From Yoonia maritima (lineage in GTDB: Bacteria; Pseudomonadota; Alphaproteobacteria; Rhodobacterales; Rhodobacteraceae): 64,000 bases of DNA. A program made the translations under genes and the position numbers. Numbering within the stretch: position 1 is the first letter of the stretch; every line of letters starts with the position of its first letter. This document shows, piece after piece, positions 7,321 through 64,000 of the stretch. The stretch covers positions 806,001-870,000 of the forward strand of contig NZ_PKFN01000008.1 of NCBI RefSeq assembly GCF_002933395.1. Reading direction: 5' to 3'. The notes under the pieces are model-generated. The model made no database searches and was not told the DNA's origin. It saw nothing but the letters and a program-made list of their open reading frames with translations.

Positions 7321-8364
7321 ATGCCAGAAAAGAAGGTTCCGACAAACGGCGCTCCTGCTGAGCGCCCCAAAGATGGAAAACCAACGCTCAAAACGATTGC
7401 TCGGATTAGCGGGCTTGCCGTGCCGACGGTGTCGCGCGCCCTGAATGACGCACCCGACATCGGGAACGAAACCAAAAAGCTAATTCGTAAAATCGCCAAA
7501 GATATTGGGTATGTTCCCAACCGTGCAGGTGTACGGTTACGCACGGGACGTACAAATGTCATTGGCCTTGTTATGTCGACAGAACATGACCTGATGAGCC
7601 ATACCGCGCGTCTGATTTCGTCAGTCGCAAGCGGCCTACGTGACACTCCATTCCACATGGTCGTCACGCCGTTTTTCCCAGACCAAGACCCAATGGACCC
7701 GATCCGATATATTGTGGAATCCGGCTCGGCTGATGCGATCATCCTGAACCAAATTCGCCCGGATGACCCGCGCGTAGCTTATCTAATGGAACGCGGATTT
7801 CCCTTTGCTGCACATGGCCGGTCCAACTGGGCTGATCAGCACCCATATTATGACTACGACAACGAAGCGTTTGGCCATCTTGCCCTAACAAAACTGGTCG
7901 CACATGGTCGCAAAAACATCCTTGTTATCGCGCCGCCGATTGAACACAGCTATGCGCTTCATCTTTTGGCGGGCGTAAATACGGCTGCGACAGAACATGG
8001 TGTCACAACAATTGTCGCGGATAGCGTCACCAGCGATAGTTCGATCGCCGACGTTGTTGCCTATATTAACCACTCTCTAACCCAGCACCCTGAGATTGAC
8101 GCAATACTGTCCGCATCCACATCTTCGGCCATGGCCGCCGTTGCAGCGATTGAACAATCCGGTGGGCAGGTCGGTAAGGAAATAGATGTCTTCGCAAAAG
8201 AGGCTCTTCCCTTTCTGAAGCTATTTCGTGCTGACATTTTGACAGTTGCAGAACAAGTCGGCACCGCCGGACAGTTCCTCGCCAAAGCCGCCATTCAAGC
8301 GATCAGGCAACCAACTGCGCCACCAATGCAGCAACTAGAAGTCCCGCTAGACGACAACCTTTAG
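7321..8364 (+). CDS. LacI-family transcriptional regulator
   Basis: Regulator of 347 residues. An N-terminal LacI-type helix-turn-helix (TLKTIARISGLAVPTVSRAL) with hinge PNRAGVRLRTGRTNVIGLV is followed by a periplasmic-binding-like sensor domain. The frame is open from a GTG at 7285, but the ATG at 7321 is preferred: it has GGGAGG ten bases upstream and gives the usual short N-terminal arm. It is divergent from the sugar importer, and the two palindromes in the shared gap are its likely targets. It probably represses the importer/mannosidase operon until the sugar or a phosphorylated product binds. The last 18 bases overlap the convergent gluconokinase gene. Confidence 0.9.
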   Translation: MPEKKVPTNGAPAERPKDGKPTLKTIARISGLAVPTVSRALNDAPDIGNETKKLIRKIAKDIGYVPNRAGVRLRTGRTNVIGLVMSTEHDLMSHTARLISSVASGLRDTPFHMVVTPFFPDQDPMDPIRYIVESGSADAIILNQIRPDDPRVAYLMERGFPFAAHGRSNWADQHPYYDYDNEAFGHLALTKLVAHGRKNILVIAPPIEHSYALHLLAGVNTAATEHGVTTIVADSVTSDSSIADVVAYINHSLTQHPEIDAILSASTSSAMAAVAAIEQSGGQVGKEIDVFAKEALPFLKLFRADILTVAEQVGTAGQFLAKAAIQAIRQPTAPPMQQLEVPLDDNL

Positions 8365-58774: not shown

Positions 58775-59252
58775 ATCCCATATCTCTCTAGCCAAATCAC
58801 GCTGCTTAAGATGGGACCCGCATTACCATCCGCGCGATATGCGGAAAGAGTTAGATAGAGATTTACGTCGCAGAACTTAACCAAGACAAATGTCAGCGGG
58901 AGGCAGGCGTCTACGGCCTTTCTGCTCACTAAGCGGAGGTCGTCCCGCAGTCAAGTGGTCACTTATATCGGCTCTGCCAGAGCCGACATTCGTGCAGCGT
59001 GTAGCATTCGGTAAAATGGGCTCTTCGCGGTCATAAGCTGCGCAGACCACGAACGGCTGGTCTAGGATGAACTGACTTTCGCTGCACGGCGCATGAACCG
59101 GTAAGATGCGGACAAACTTGCCATTGAAAACATCCATCTGAATGTCCGCTTGCAAAAAATGAGCTATCTTTTCTTTCAGTGAGATTGTGTCTGTATTCGA
59201 ATTTCTTTGGGAGCTAGAATCAAATGAAGACTAAGCTGGTTGCGTTGCAAAA
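58775..59252. other. Intergenic region with 99-base direct repeat
   Basis: Contains the first direct repeat (59016-59114) and, just before it, an inverted pair GGCTCTG/CAGAGCC (58971-58985). Otherwise decayed repeat-like sequence. The short leftward frame at 58877-59155 is repeat-derived and not a gene. Confidence 0.45.
59016..59114 (+). repeat. 99-base perfect direct repeat, copy 1
   Basis: Identical over all 99 bases to 61098-61196, same orientation. Starts ATGGGCTCTTCGCGG and ends GATGCGGACA. The pair brackets the DUF1963 gene and 2.0 kb of DNA, which suggests recent duplication or insertion. Confidence 0.92.
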
Positions 59253-61010
59253 CTAAGCCCGTTCCGCTGTTATAAAGGCCTTTTCAAAACGGCGGTTCGT
59301 CAGGTCATCCTTTTCGATCCAGAACACCACCCAATCACCATAGAATTCGAAACCAAGGTCAGGGTCGGTCTGAATGGCCAAAAGCCGGATGAGATTTCCT
59401 TCTGGTTCTATTTGAGTTTGGCCGCCGAACATATGATGCGTTTTATAGTAGTACGCGTTGGCGGGGTTTCTGGCGAAGTAGACTTGAGCCTCATTGATTT
59501 CCTGTGATGTCCCCGTCTGGGTCCGGGTGAATTGTCGGTGCGAAAGCTGCGCGCGGACATGTTCCATACTGTCCAGATATGCTTTGACGATTGCTGTCTC
59601 TATAGTGCCATTTTTCGACTTGGTTGTCGATCTGTAGCCGTCAAATGAGAGATACTCGAAGGGGCGGCGTGTATATCCTTCAAGGGGGTGACCGAAGAAC
59701 GGCGAACCTTCTTCCAGCGTTTCCGGGTAAGGTACGTTTGGACGTTGCCGCAGCGCAAACTCAGAGACATCGGCAGAAGAATAGATAACGCAGTTCATCG
59801 CCAGCGACTTGCGGTTGAACGCAATTTCATTGTCTGCGAATGGTTCAAAAAAGAAGAAAAGGGTGCCCCACTCGGGCAGATCAATGCTGCCGTCAATGCG
59901 CGGCAAGGTCGCCAAATCGATCTGGGCAAGCAGGTGCTTTGGTATCTTCTTGGTGACAAAATCGGCGTAGACCTCACCATCTTCATCTTCGATTTCCTCC
60001 TCGACCTCATAGTCGAAACATGGCCAGTCTATTTCAGGTGGTAAGTTGGCAGCACCTCCCAACCACGACCCGGGACAACCCACCTCATCTGGTCGATCAG
60101 TTTTTACCAAGACGAGGCCGGGATGACGTGCCTTTGCCAGCGCTTCATCGATCTCCTGTTGTGATGGGGTGCGTTTCCACTCAGCATAAACGGGGTCTTT
60201 CATTCTCTCTTCATGTAAATCTTGAGCCGCATTTTCCTTTTCAGCCCGCTTGTCTTGAAGGTGTTTTTTGTAGGTCTGTACAGGTTCTTGGAGATCCGGG
60301 TTAAGGCGGACAATCAATGGCAGCATCTCATACACAAGATGCCCTTCCTTGCTCTCCAGCGACCTCCATTTCCGTATCAGTCCTTCCAAAACAGACAAAA
60401 ACGCGGGGTCATATTGCGCCTCGTCGTTGTTCAAGACGGCGTTAAGTACAGCCACCGGCCAAAATCGCAAACTTTTTGCCTCCCATTGGGGATGTATACC
60501 CACAGAGGCGCGATCTCCATCATGGGTGCGGTCGCGTTCGATGTTACCATTAGGATCACACATGAACTCAAGGACGAGTGCCGCATCGGAACTGGACATG
60601 ACCGCCACGTTCTCTTGCGCAATCTCCTTGGCCATGCAGTGTAGCCGTTCCGCATCAACATGATATTGTTCAAAGTTATGATGTACGATTGCGCAATGAA
60701 CCCCACTTTTGTGCATCGCAACGGCAATCCTTGCCAGCATATCACCTTGTTCAGCTTTGGGCCGCCGCAAAATGGATCGGGCCAGTTCGGGGTGATGATC
60801 ATAAATATTTTCATCGCCCACAATTAACGCTCCGCTCGCGCTTTTTTCTACAAGCAACTGGTTCAGATACGGACTACCGATGTTGCTGCGAAACCCATCG
60901 GGCGGTCCAGCAAGTAGTTCCACCAGTGGGACCACAGGTTGAGAACGAGGCTTATCTCTCAAAACACTCAAAATTGATCGGATCGATTTCGGCAGGTTGG
61001 GTCGGGGCAT
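59253..61010 (-). CDS. DUF1963-domain protein (YwqG-like)
   Basis: A 585-residue cytoplasmic protein. The last 280 residues are DUF1963: SWLGGAANLPPEIDWP, HLLAQIDLATLPRIDGSIDL, PEWGTLFFFFEP, and YFARNPANAYYYKTHHMFGG with QTDPDLGFEFYGDWVVFWI. The family (YwqG) is structural-only, function unknown. The N-terminal 300 residues are unusual: a segment with MLARIAVAMHKSGVHCAIVH and a long basic-acidic coiled stretch (KKHLQDKRAEKENAAQDLHE). Flanked by perfect 99-base repeats, so it seems to be a cargo gene. Confidence 0.8.
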   Translation of the reverse strand: MPRPNLPKSIRSILSVLRDKPRSQPVVPLVELLAGPPDGFRSNIGSPYLNQLLVEKSASGALIVGDENIYDHHPELARSILRRPKAEQGDMLARIAVAMHKSGVHCAIVHHNFEQYHVDAERLHCMAKEIAQENVAVMSSSDAALVLEFMCDPNGNIERDRTHDGDRASVGIHPQWEAKSLRFWPVAVLNAVLNNDEAQYDPAFLSVLEGLIRKWRSLESKEGHLVYEMLPLIVRLNPDLQEPVQTYKKHLQDKRAEKENAAQDLHEERMKDPVYAEWKRTPSQQEIDEALAKARHPGLVLVKTDRPDEVGCPGSWLGGAANLPPEIDWPCFDYEVEEEIEDEDGEVYADFVTKKIPKHLLAQIDLATLPRIDGSIDLPEWGTLFFFFEPFADNEIAFNRKSLAMNCVIYSSADVSEFALRQRPNVPYPETLEEGSPFFGHPLEGYTRRPFEYLSFDGYRSTTKSKNGTIETAIVKAYLDSMEHVRAQLSHRQFTRTQTGTSQEINEAQVYFARNPANAYYYKTHHMFGGQTQIEPEGNLIRLLAIQTDPDLGFEFYGDWVVFWIEKDDLTNRRFEKAFITAERA

Positions 61011-61097
61011 TGAGCTCGCGTAATTTGAGAAGTTGAAAGGGCCTTGAGTTCAAGGAAACATTAGCAGACCTTCGCTGCGTTGCGGAATAAATGCAAG

Positions 61098-61196
61098 ATG
61101 GGCTCTTCGCGGTCATAAGCTGCGCAGACCACGAACGGCTGGTCTAGGATGAACTGACTTTCGCTGCACGGCGCATGAACCGGTAAGATGCGGACA
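61098..61196 (+). repeat. 99-base perfect direct repeat, copy 2
   Basis: Partner of 59016-59114 with no mismatch. Sequence diverges directly after GCGGACA in both copies (AACTTG versus GTGCGG). Confidence 0.92.
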
Positions 61197-61347
61197 GTGC
61201 GGACTTGTGCAGGTGCGGCTAGTCTGCCTGTTGGAGCCGCATGGCGGTTTGGCATGATTTGCGCGGCCTCGGGTGCGGCTTTGGGAGCAGATATGGTCAT
61301 TTTGCCTGCATTGTTTGCCACTGTGCTCATGAAGCAAGCGGGCGGTC

Positions 61348-61563
61348 AAGCCGGTGGCCATTGGCCGCAAAAATTGGATGTTCGCAGGCTCGCAAGGAGG
61401 TGGCAAAGCCATGGCAATTGCTTACACCCTGATCGAAACTGCCAAGCTGAACAACGTAGATCCGCAGGCATGGCTGACTTGGGTTCTCGCTCAAATCGCA
61501 GACCACAAGATCACCCGCCTCGACGAGCTCACGCCTTGGCGATATGCTGCACAAGCAGCATAA
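61348..61563 (+). pseudogene. IS66 transposase C-terminal fragment
   Basis: The frame from about 61348 reads [20 protein letters not shown], then [20 protein letters not shown] and [10 protein letters not shown], the C-terminal domain of IS66-family transposases, ending AAQAA. Only about 70 residues of some 500 remain. The usual GGE of that segment reads GGGK here. It marks the left border of the radical SAM cluster. Confidence 0.85.
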
Positions 61564-61824
61564 CAGAGGCAGTAAACGTCACGCCACAGCGCCTTCAACG
61601 AACAGGCACCATGCATGCACCACCCAGCCGGTTCAAAGCAGCCATGGAAAACCTCTTGCGAATAGGAGTGTCTCGCCAAAAACAACTTTTAGGCGGTTTA
61701 ACGCCAGTAACAAGCCATTTACGGTTGCAAATCGCTCGCTCTGGTTGATATTGGTCGGACCAGAATATCGTTACGTTGCGCGGTGCATCACTTTTTTTCT
61801 CCAAATGTTGTTAGGAATCAAATT

Positions 61825-62676
61825 ATGATCAAGCCTGCAAAAATAAGTTGTTCAGCAGATGGAAGCACAAAGTATCTTTGGGAGCTGGAAGATGGGAAGT
61901 TCGTTGAAAGCATCTACTTTGAGCTGGACGACAAAGGAATCTATTGCTTATCCAGTCAGGTTGGATGCAATGTTGGTTGCCCTTTCTGCGAAACCGGAAA
62001 ACAGAAAGTGCTCCGAAACCTTTCATCAGAAGAAATAGTGCAACAGGTCTACGGGCTATTTGAAGACAAAGGATTAAGTCGAATTGACGAGATAGACTAT
62101 GCTGGTATGGGCGAGCCGTTGCATAACTTTGAAGGAGTCGAGGAGTCATCTGACAGGATGATAACGGAGAATCTGACAGACTTAGTCTCACTAACTACGT
62201 CTGGCATCGTGCCCAAGATGAAGTTGCTGCCGGACACTGCGGTTGGCGAACTCTATTTGTCAATGCACGCCTCCGACAATGCCACTCGATCCCTCTTGGT
62301 CCCTGTAAATAGGAAGTGGCCAATCGCTGAGACCGTTGACGCAGCCTCCTACGTTGCCGAAAAGCTGGGCCGTACTGTTACAGCAAACTACCTACTTTTT
62401 GATAACTTGAATGATGCGGATGGCGATGCCGTGAATTTAGCCAATGCGCTCAACCCTAACGACTTTAGAGTCCAACTGAGTGAATGGAACTTAGTTAGCA
62501 ATTTCAGATATGTTCCAGCAAAACCAGAGCGTTTCGAAATTTTTGAGGACATGCTAACCGAACGCGGTTACGAAGTATATAAGATGGTCAGTAGTGGTAC
62601 TGACGTGGGCGGTGGTTGCGGCCAGCTAAGCGCCCAGACACTTGAAGATCTGGCGGTTGCCGGAGATGTTGAGTAA
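61825..62676 (+). CDS. RlmN/Cfr-like radical SAM methyl synthase, short form
   Basis: A 283-residue radical SAM enzyme. Iron-sulfur ligands C48, C52 and C55 (GCNVGCPFCETG) and both extra catalytic cysteines of RlmN/Cfr: Cys41, seven before the cluster as E. coli C118 is to C125, and Cys265 in GTDVGGGCGQLS, like C355. Also DYAGMGEPLHN, LSMHASDNATRSLLVPVNRK. The chain starts where RlmN has its SVDGTRKWL strand, so the N-terminal RNA-binding domain of about 75 residues is missing. It should add methyl to an sp2 carbon through a methyl-cysteine, but probably not on 23S rRNA. AGGA precedes ATG 61825; its stop overlaps the next start (TAATG). Confidence 0.9.
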   Translation: MIKPAKISCSADGSTKYLWELEDGKFVESIYFELDDKGIYCLSSQVGCNVGCPFCETGKQKVLRNLSSEEIVQQVYGLFEDKGLSRIDEIDYAGMGEPLHNFEGVEESSDRMITENLTDLVSLTTSGIVPKMKLLPDTAVGELYLSMHASDNATRSLLVPVNRKWPIAETVDAASYVAEKLGRTVTANYLLFDNLNDADGDAVNLANALNPNDFRVQLSEWNLVSNFRYVPAKPERFEIFEDMLTERGYEVYKMVSSGTDVGGGCGQLSAQTLEDLAVAGDVE

Positions 62677-63698
62677 TGTGTGGACTGGCGGGGTTTTTTG
62701 TCGGCTGTGAATTGGCCGAATCTTGCAAGAAGTCGGCGATATCTTGCGAAAGCATCAAGCGCAACTATGCCTCGCCATTTAGGAATTGGGATAGTAGGGC
62801 AAGCGTCCGCTCGGCGCCTCAAAGACAGCTTGGCGATAGCGAAACTCTCTTCCCCTCCGAGCTTGTTCCGATAACAAATCACCCCCTATTTGGCAGGAAG
62901 TACGAGCACCTTAGGTCAGTGATTTGTAATCTAGAACTGCTGCGGTTCCTTGACTTCACCACGAAACTGGAAATGGTTGTTGTGAATGATGCGACTGCAA
63001 AGGTGGCTCTAGGGTTGTTTCCGTTTGTGCTTGACGACGAAGCTCAGCTGGACGCTCATCGCATCTACGTCGACGAAGCCTACCACTCACTTTTCTCATT
63101 TCAGATGGCTCAGAACGTCAGAATACGGTTAGGTCTGAATAACTGCTTTGAGCTGCCTCAACCCGCATTTCTAAGGCGAACAAATGCCTTGGTTTCTGGT
63201 TTGGATTCGCAGCTACGGAGGGAGTACGCGAAGTTGTTTTTTGTAATCATCTCAGAGATGTTGATTACGAGTACCCTAAATGAAGCCCGATCCTATTCTG
63301 GAGTCGATGAAGGCATAAGGAAATTGATGTCAGATCACTCCAGTGACGAGTATCGTCATCATATATTCTACCGTCAACTTTTAGAGCAGATTTGGCCACA
63401 AATAGATATTGATACAAAAGAGTTTTTCCTTTCGAACCTTGAGAGCTTTACTGCCGCCTACTTAAGGCCCGACAAGAAGTCATTGGTCAAAGAGATGCTA
63501 TTTGCGGGTTTGCAGAGGGATGACGCTGAACAGATTTTTGATGAAACCTACGTACCTGATGTTGTGCGAAGCTATGATCTTGCCTGTACGCAAGAGATTC
63601 GAACTGTACTGGCGGATCTAGCTCACAATACAGACGGGTTGTCGCGAGAGCTTGTACTTGGAATATCTACTGGCCACACAGAGAATATCTCCAATTAA
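62676..63698 (+). CDS. AurF-like diiron N-oxygenase
   Basis: A 340-residue diiron oxygenase. The seven ligands fall at E99, E134, H137, E194, H221, E225 and H228; the spacing (35, 3, 57, 27, 4, 3) is exactly that of AurF (E101, E136, H139, E196, H223, E227, H230). Local motifs: VDEAYHSLF, IISEMLITST, DHSSDEYRHHIFY. Such enzymes oxidise amines to hydroxylamines, nitroso or nitro groups. The first 35 residues (MCGLAGFFVG...) are not seen in AurF, which begins near WDSRASVRS; MCGLAGF by chance recalls class II amidotransferases. Start ATG 62676 is coupled to the radical SAM gene by TAATG. Confidence 0.88.
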   Translation: MCGLAGFFVGCELAESCKKSAISCESIKRNYASPFRNWDSRASVRSAPQRQLGDSETLFPSELVPITNHPLFGRKYEHLRSVICNLELLRFLDFTTKLEMVVVNDATAKVALGLFPFVLDDEAQLDAHRIYVDEAYHSLFSFQMAQNVRIRLGLNNCFELPQPAFLRRTNALVSGLDSQLRREYAKLFFVIISEMLITSTLNEARSYSGVDEGIRKLMSDHSSDEYRHHIFYRQLLEQIWPQIDIDTKEFFLSNLESFTAAYLRPDKKSLVKEMLFAGLQRDDAEQIFDETYVPDVVRSYDLACTQEIRTVLADLAHNTDGLSRELVLGISTGHTENISN

Positions 63699-63733
63699 CG
63701 TCAGTTTGAATATAAAGAAGGGCCAATTCAGCT

Positions 63734-64000
63734 ATGACAAGTTTATCGTTAAATGCTAGAAGCTATTGGGATAATCGTGCTCAGGTATTTGAGAAGCAGT
63801 TTGAGTTGGCACCAGTACGACGCAAGGTAATTCAGCGGATTATTGAAATTGCCAAACCTAAATCTGACGAAATATTTGTAGATATTGGCATGGGAACCGC
63901 GAGACTATTTACCGAGGGCGCGCAACATTTCAAGGCTGCTCGTGACTTGGTCGGGGTCGACATCTCGCCTGAAATGGCAGAAATTGCGAAAAGTCGCATG
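63734..64000 (+). CDS. SAM-dependent methyltransferase, cut by the edge
   Basis: Eighty-nine codons are visible. SLNARSYWDNRAQVFEKQFE is a class I methyltransferase N-terminus, followed by the SAM motif VDIGMGTARLF and acidic strand LVGVDISPEMAEIAK. Rossmann-fold methyltransferase; O-, N- or C-methylation cannot be told. It follows the diiron oxygenase by 36 bases in the same direction, so it is likely the third gene of the cluster. Confidence 0.85.
   Translation, partial: MTSLSLNARSYWDNRAQVFEKQFELAPVRRKVIQRIIEIAKPKSDEIFVDIGMGTARLFTEGAQHFKAARDLVGVDISPEMAEIAKSRM

Follow-up and report, generated by a model that had tools for sequence, protein, structure and literature searches.

The 64,000-nucleotide stretch of Yoonia maritima DNA analysed here (the window, G000:C9:806001-870000 of a 3.67-Mb genome) runs at its right end into an operon of five same-strand genes. 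As found by open reading frame (ORF) and family searches, these encode, in order, a short RlmN-like radical S-adenosylmethionine (SAM) protein, a diiron oxygenase, a SAM-dependent methyltransferase, a major facilitator superfamily (MFS) transporter and an asparagine synthetase B (AsnB). We regard it as an evenly balanced proposition that this operon directs the synthesis and export of a small hydroxamate-type metabolite, with the radical SAM protein modifying a molecule of the pathway; the product would probably be metal-binding. An earlier note on this DNA had proposed a biosynthetic operon combining an N-oxygenase-family enzyme with methylases, which our results support, and had added that no pathway with its first three genes was described. 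That statement stands for the radical SAM part in the literature searched but not for the remainder, since diiron enzymes paired with AsnB-family enzymes are already known from published hydroxamate-type modules. What is new is the presence in the operon of a class A-like radical SAM protein without the RNA-gripping domain. To our knowledge, adenosine in RNA is the target of both known members of that class, RlmN and Cfr. While the operon layout, the family and clade placements, the catalytic residues, the missing N-terminal domain, the acidic core and the association of diiron with asnB genes are direct observations, every reaction and substrate in the hydroxamate scheme is one that we infer.

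Family searches agree with the assignments of the earlier note. The radical SAM protein scores 47.1 bits to Radical_SAM and 198.6 bits to the RlmN model TIGR00048, under the cut-off of 290 for the latter, and 125.1 bits to the CfrAB NCBIfam model against a cut-off of 530. The diiron protein scores 82.2 bits to AurF PF11583, and the methyltransferase 75.7 bits to Methyltransf_25 at full length (28.3 bits for the stub inside the window).

The short RlmN-like radical SAM protein

The RlmN catalytic set is complete in the radical SAM protein (C41, C48-x3-C52-x2-C55, C265 and E28), E28 being the counterpart of E105 of RlmN. RlmN chemistry employs a methylated Cys355 together with Cys118 (PMC6050322), and in our alignment C265 and C41 occupy the equivalent positions. 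The closest structures to an AlphaFold model of the protein (pLDDT 87.6, from an alignment of 29 sequences) are those of RlmN (6fz6, TMq 0.84), with Cfr (9p0p) at 0.72; because the alignment behind the model was built from RlmN, the match tests the fold and not the function. The window protein and RlmN therefore have the radical SAM core fold, the catalytic cysteines and the glutamate in common. In contrast to RlmN, the window protein, judged by its sequence, is without the N-terminal accessory domain; its core is strongly acidic and its gene overlaps the diiron gene.

Only 9 residues precede the core in the window protein and 24 in its one ortholog (in genome G112, from another taxonomic family of the same class), as against a median of 97 in 87 RlmN-type proteins. 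The net core charge is -21 in the window protein and -11 in the G112 protein, compared with a mean of +0.5 (s.d. 3.0, range -7 to +10) in the same 87, a set of 80 proteins from the species-genome scan described below and 7 from the genus that was picked by similarity to the query and includes some proteins at contig ends. Both short proteins are changed at 23 of the 85 columns that are conserved in at least 93% of the 87, in 8 cases to the same residue; at 4 of the 23, at least one of them has a gap. A hidden RlmN N-terminal domain was not found upstream, at 59001-61900, with ten RlmN N-termini as queries: the best match (E 0.074) was 26 residues overlapping the radical SAM gene's own start. 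On a true RlmN locus (L106) the control search with N-termini of genus members gave E values of 4e-38 to 8e-59 among the matches listed.

Matches to the radical SAM protein were present in 54 of 56 genomes of the genus (E 1e-15), and only its own genome had two; the absence of a second RlmN-type match from the other 55 bears out the earlier placement of the gene on accessory DNA. The second match in its own genome (C9:803438-804280) lies in an open frame of 417 amino acids, thus of RlmN length, about 64 kb from the short gene and just beyond the left edge of the window. Together with the missing domain, this match upholds the earlier view that the RlmN-like enzyme is probably not the ordinary RlmN. 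In 84,980 species genomes, a pattern scan that depends on exact short peptides, and would overlook orthologs that have diverged, yielded 112 stretches and 91 relatives, of which 80 were kept; the best identity was 37% over most of the protein, or 39% for a partial match (L087), and the relatives' ORFs were at least 349 amino acids long except in L087 and L013, which lie near contig ends. Six-frame searches at E 1e-48 found 2 of 289 genomes in the class (its own and G112), and 1 of 275 in the family and 1 of 294 in the phylum, its own both times. Plasmid records with a match at E 1e-10 numbered 245; among the best 30 of these, the highest identity was 34.4% and the matching genes were annotated as RlmN or unannotated. 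A Rhodobacter xanthinilyticus plasmid gene named rlmN (34%) was considered as a short relative and rejected because it encodes 336 amino acids. Viral contigs, searched with an alignment of the two short radical SAM sequences, gave no relative.

The G112 protein is 41% identical to the window protein, is missing the same domain and shares the motif CETGKQKV. In a tree of both with 30 of the 87 RlmN proteins they form a clade (100/99), although the program flagged its long branches. An RlmN from another member of the genus is placed there with those of Tropicimonas and Rhodovulum, in keeping with an alphaproteobacterial host. The G112 locus (L119:4226-11759) is uncharacterised and metabolite-like, and holds two radical SAM proteins. 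Its genes encode an adenosine deaminase-family protein, a TauD oxygenase, an unknown 342-amino-acid protein, the short RlmN-like protein, a B12 radical SAM protein and an unknown 200-amino-acid protein. The B12 protein is KedN5-like (172 bits against a family cut-off of 700). Where the window operon has diiron and AsnB genes, the neighbours in G112 are thus the TauD, the 342-amino-acid and the KedN5-like proteins, and neither a diiron gene nor asnB was found on its 11.8-kb contig.

The missing N-terminal domain, the acidic core and the clade with the G112 protein together suggest a class A methylase that has shifted from RNA to a small molecule. In Cfr the N-terminal domain has a likely role in substrate recognition (PMC8752094). 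Our tentative view, which we hold at somewhat less than even confidence, is that the two short proteins are small-molecule class A methylases in two natural-product-type loci, here building a C-methylated hydroxamate, and that loss of the recognition domain freed the methyl-cysteine mechanism from RNA. If so, RNA would no longer be the only known kind of substrate for radical methylation through a methyl-cysteine, and a small domain-free enzyme would be at hand for learning what this chemistry requires. No class A enzyme acting on a small molecule was found in the literature searched (PMC12858407, PMC6050322 and PMC9303977 among it), which is weak evidence of absence as the search covered few subscription papers.

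The same protein could instead serve for self-protection, modifying the producer's ribosome in the manner of Cfr against the product of the operon and taking no part in biosynthesis. Antibiotic operons often include resistance methylases, and the nearest relatives of the protein are indeed RlmN and Cfr. We nevertheless consider this unlikely: the protein is without the accessory domain that in Cfr is likely to take part in substrate recognition, its core charge falls outside the range of the 87 RlmN proteins, its CfrAB score is well under the cut-off, and a match of RlmN length exists elsewhere in the host genome.

The diiron protein and its relatives

The diiron protein scores 24.2 bits to the AurF equivalog NF045603, for which the cut-off is 620. 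Its phmmer matches to structures include 5hyg, which we take to be CmlI (E 2e-10), and AurF (3chh, E 7e-9), and it is 31% identical over 266 amino acids to TsnB7 of Streptomyces angustmyceticus (E 7e-36). The iron ligands assigned by alignment are E99, E134, H137, E194, H221, E225 and H228, and these seven columns (E, ExxH, E, HxxxExxH) are complete in all 16 aligned proteins. The protein has these ligands and the PF11583 family in common with AurF and CmlI; the ligands are therefore not specific for the TsnB7 type. In a 16-sequence tree the window protein belongs to a 12-member group with TsnB7_SA, which is separated with 100/100 support from AurF, CmlI, a Rhodococcus protein and a G033 protein. 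The sister of TsnB7 in this tree is a Nostoc protein (95/96), and the window protein joins proteins from two genomes of its class, G247 and G675, with weak support (82/73).

The earlier note had read the AurF-like domain as a sign of N-oxygenation of arylamines or related amines, within a pathway that first C-methylates an unsaturated or heteroaromatic amine. Spelt out, the radical SAM protein would C-methylate an arylamine or heteroaromatic amine, and its nitrogen would then be oxidised to nitroso or nitro. Such a pathway would account for the PF11583 domain with all its iron ligands and would offer the sp2 carbon that a class A methylase needs. It is made quite unlikely by the low score to the AurF model, by the fully supported split from AurF and CmlI, and by asnB neighbours, which indicate amides. 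Given that split and the AsnB-type enzyme encoded downstream, the nearest precedent is the formation of a hydroxamate from an amide.

Diiron matches were found in 12 of 72,556 plasmid records (E 1e-3), 7 of 385 genomes of the class (its own included, E 1e-8), 2 of 394 of the family (its own included, E 1e-15) and, in the phylum, its own alone among 299 (E 1e-25), with 0 in 50,697 phage records; these samples overlap. Eight relatives have at least 29% identity, namely six plasmid records plus G247 and G675, and in six of the eight (L097, L099, L100, L103, L120 and L122) asnB lies at most two genes from the diiron gene; the two without it are from Nostoc (L098) and Megaera (L123). The asnB-bearing plasmid relatives are from Streptomyces NBC_00853, NBC_00497 and NBC 01786 and from S. 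angustmyceticus, where the locus is the TsnB cassette itself. In all three NBC plasmids an MFS gene is nearby as well, though encoded on the other strand in NBC_00853. Among distant matches, no asnB was seen in a 10.7-kb Burkholderia locus, nor in seven loci (L092-L096, L128 and L129) which, at 3.7-4.8 kb, are too short to settle the matter. Rhodococcus H9 and H10 and Tistrella H12 were left out of this neighbourhood survey.

In the Megaera relative a nonribosomal peptide synthetase (NRPS) gene stands beside the diiron gene. G675 (L103:4455-19624) and G247 (L100:1-15140) have a common cluster with a P-type ATPase, asnB, a P450, an MCG-type diiron protein, an acyl-AMP ligase, and polyketide synthase (PKS), aminotransferase and NRPS genes, all named by eye apart from asnB and the diiron gene; its product is possibly a lipopeptide with a hydroxamate.

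The start of the diiron protein is backed by three homologs with the same first residue and the same MCG N-terminus, which reads MCGLAGFFVGC-x5-C. Encoded at 62676-62726, this N-terminus is MCGLAGFFVGCELAESC, and further cysteines follow. It is present in 4 of the 16 diiron proteins compared (window, NBC_00853, G247 and G675) and resembles MCGIAGFF, the N-terminal strand of class II glutamine amidotransferases with its nucleophile. A role in metal binding or electron transfer is conceivable, or it may be a relic; a structure prediction made without homologs was uninformative on it (pLDDT 35.0).

The asparagine synthetase

The operon AsnB scores 675.1 bits to the AsnB equivalog PRK09431 (cut-off 499), has about 50% identity with E. 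coli AsnB across residues 1-520, and is the genome's only strong Asn_synthase match; further matches at four places have 20-26 bits, and three of these slightly exceed the family cut-off of 21. It retains the E. coli-type motif DVTx-xRAS (as DVTS-VRAS), which we take to act at the Asp site. Of the residues that we assume to be the AsnB signature (Cys1, R49, N74-G75-E76, D98, E348, D351, Y357 and K449 in E. coli numbering), all are present save for G75A and E348D, two positions that are unchanged in the AsnBs of E. coli, Aeromonas, Parabacteroides and L. sakei. Its oxyanion motif is NAE, unlike the SGE of TsnB9_SA (N74S). From these features we cannot choose between hydroxylamine transfer to aspartate and the supply of free asparagine, both of which are possible. 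E. coli AsnB itself was reported in 1996 to accept glutamate gamma-hydroxamate and hydroxylamine.

A proposed hydroxamate scheme and its precedents

In the scheme that we favour, the TsnB7-like diiron protein would hydroxylate a side-chain amide nitrogen, turning glutamine into glutamate gamma-hydroxamate or asparagine into aspartate beta-hydroxamate. The AsnB-type enzyme would then pass the hydroxylamine unit to aspartate, or else furnish free asparagine for the oxidation; the product is perhaps reached by way of aspartate beta-hydroxamate. The RlmN-like protein would methylate an sp2 carbon of a pathway molecule by way of the methyl-cysteine C265 and the resolving C41, the small methyltransferase would cap the product, and the MFS protein would export it.

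The trichostatin/benzohydroxamic acid module TsnB6-7-8-9 of S. angustmyceticus likewise combines a methyltransferase and an AsnB-family enzyme with a diiron protein from the broad group to which that of the window belongs. The conversion of glutamine to glutamyl hydroxamate is ascribed to TsnB6 and TsnB7 and the transfer of the hydroxylamine unit to a carboxylate is ascribed to TsnB9, the methyltransferase gene tsnB8 usually lies between those for TsnB7 and TsnB9, and the TsnB6/7/9-type proteins SaAmOx-AS, SaAmOx and SaHAT made benzohydroxamic acid in E. coli (PMC13418202). The window operon differs in that its AsnB is of the canonical rather than the TsnB9 type, in that it has no PKS, and in that it has RlmN-like radical SAM and MFS genes instead; its methyltransferase shows no similarity to TsnB8 by BLASTP at E 1e-4. 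The matlystatin (MatA/MatC) and actinonin (ActI/ActJ) pairs are described with an AurF-like oxygenase and an AsnB-like enzyme and without TsnB6, and the authors prefer a route in which the amide is formed first and then hydroxylated; the term 'radical SAM' is absent from the main text of that paper (PMC5719088). These pairs resemble the window operon in having an AurF-family N-oxygenase, an AsnB-like enzyme and no TsnB6, but stand in an acyl-CoA and NRPS context. In the case of lipothrenin, amide N-oxygenation is suggested by the effect of deleting LitN, which is AurF-like (PMC10616846). Dob3, a diiron enzyme likened to AurF, forms a diazo group (PMC13061610), and further background is given in PMC13060819, PMC11705231, PMC13122635 and PMC6133997. 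Hydroxamates, a metal-binding group employed in enzyme inhibitors, are made by diiron and AsnB modules, of which the window operon would be a compact, exporter-equipped alphaproteobacterial version, small enough for transfer to E. coli.

Several observations weigh against this scheme. None of the five genes is of the TsnB6 type, the search for one having been confined to the operon. The AsnB is canonical by sequence and only 27% identical to TsnB9, and may therefore simply make asparagine. The position of the window diiron protein relative to TsnB7 is not settled by the tree, and the 12-member group also contains Megaera, Fischerella, G376 and G383 proteins with which no asnB was seen. A pathway through aspartate, asparagine or glutamine hydroxamates has no evident sp2-carbon substrate for a class A methylase. 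Only one ortholog of the radical SAM protein was found, and the genome that has it, on a contig of 11.8 kb, is 81% complete. Finally, in all searches made, the radical SAM-diiron pair was seen in its own genome only. The earlier note had looked to conservation of this pair in other genomes, and here the result goes the other way: tblastn at E 1e-3 found no RlmN-like gene in nine loci (10.7-31 kb) around diiron relatives, just as the G112 ortholog is without diiron and asnB neighbours. An annotated radical SAM gene that lies 2.6 kb past the diiron gene in NBC_00497 has no similarity to that of the window at E 1e-3.

Another possible output would be hydroxylamine, as has been proposed for the Dnf system of Alcaligenes: the diiron protein would oxidise glutamine, an amidotransferase would free NH2OH, and the other proteins would serve in tailoring or detoxification. 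The AurF-family DnfA is clustered with a glutamine amidotransferase, in a system discussed in terms of amide N-oxygenation (PMC11160463, PMC9136411), and in our Nostoc relative the diiron gene is followed by a glutamine amidotransferase gene and a globin gene. We think this very unlikely for the window operon, where the five genes encode neither a class I amidotransferase nor a 2Fe-2S protein like that of Dnf and where two methylases and an exporter better suit an organic product.

Operon layout and surrounding DNA

The coordinates are given in Table 1. The radical SAM stop overlaps the diiron start in the sequence TAATG, and this coupling and the methyltransferase gene downstream are as the earlier note had them, with 35 bases between the diiron and methyltransferase genes. 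The MFS and asnB genes lie right of 64000 and so outside the sequence available to that note. The radical SAM gene has an alternative in-frame start, a GTG at 61783 that would add 14 amino acids.

Table 1. Features of the operon and its relative. Positions are those of the window (L009 position + 58999; values above 64000 are extrapolated) unless a locus is named.
Feature	Position	Strand	Remarks
Short RlmN-like radical SAM protein	61825-62676	+	ATG start, 283 aa
Diiron oxygenase gene	62676-63698	+	ATG start, 340 aa
SAM-dependent methyltransferase	63734-64414 (L009:4735-5415)	+	ATG start, 226 aa; crosses window edge
MFS transporter	64431-65693 (L009:5432-6694)	+	Right of window; 420 aa counted from TTG
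Asparagine synthetase B (asnB)	65696-67324 (L009:6697-8325)	+	Right of window; 542 aa
IS66 transposase remnant	61337-61615	+	Upstream of operon, outside pathway; marks accessory junction
Short RlmN-like ortholog of G112	L119:8139-9047		302 aa from first start; 291 aa from ATG at 8172

The operon was probably acquired horizontally. The IS66 remnant that had been noticed upstream is confirmed by its resemblance to annotated IS66 transposases of roseobacter plasmids. G+C content adds only a little to the case for acquired DNA: the operon genes have 44.6-50.3%, three genes to the right 54.3-58.6% and the DUF1963 gene to the left 50.9%, and the 2-kb bin at 62001, the last in the window, is the lowest of 32 at 47.0%, others being at 48.1 and 49.3%. 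That the radical SAM gene is merely a truncated, drifting RlmN copy which overlaps the diiron gene by chance would agree with a pair not seen elsewhere and with the insertion-sequence debris and direct repeat adjoining the operon, but is hardly probable given the intact frame, the retained catalytic residues, the overlap itself, the equally short 41% ortholog in another family of the class and an upstream region in which no N-terminal domain remains.

A 102-nucleotide direct repeat, 99% identical, occurs at 59013-59114 and 61095-61196; its copies bracket the DUF1963 gene (59253-61010, minus strand) beside the IS66 remnant. At the right junction of the operon, L009:8482-8750 is a 77% match to unannotated Tritonibacter mobilis plasmid DNA. 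A large transporter-like ORF, TRAP-type by eye, lies on the opposite strand about 0.7 kb right of asnB, and homologs of this gene are present in 4 of the 5 genus members searched. Promoter-like sites numbered 3 against 6.8 expected, and terminator-like sites 7 against 6.7 expected. The PADLOC defence search gave no match for the radical SAM, diiron or AsnB proteins; in its methyltransferase part, the operon methyltransferase matched mad2 with 79 bits.

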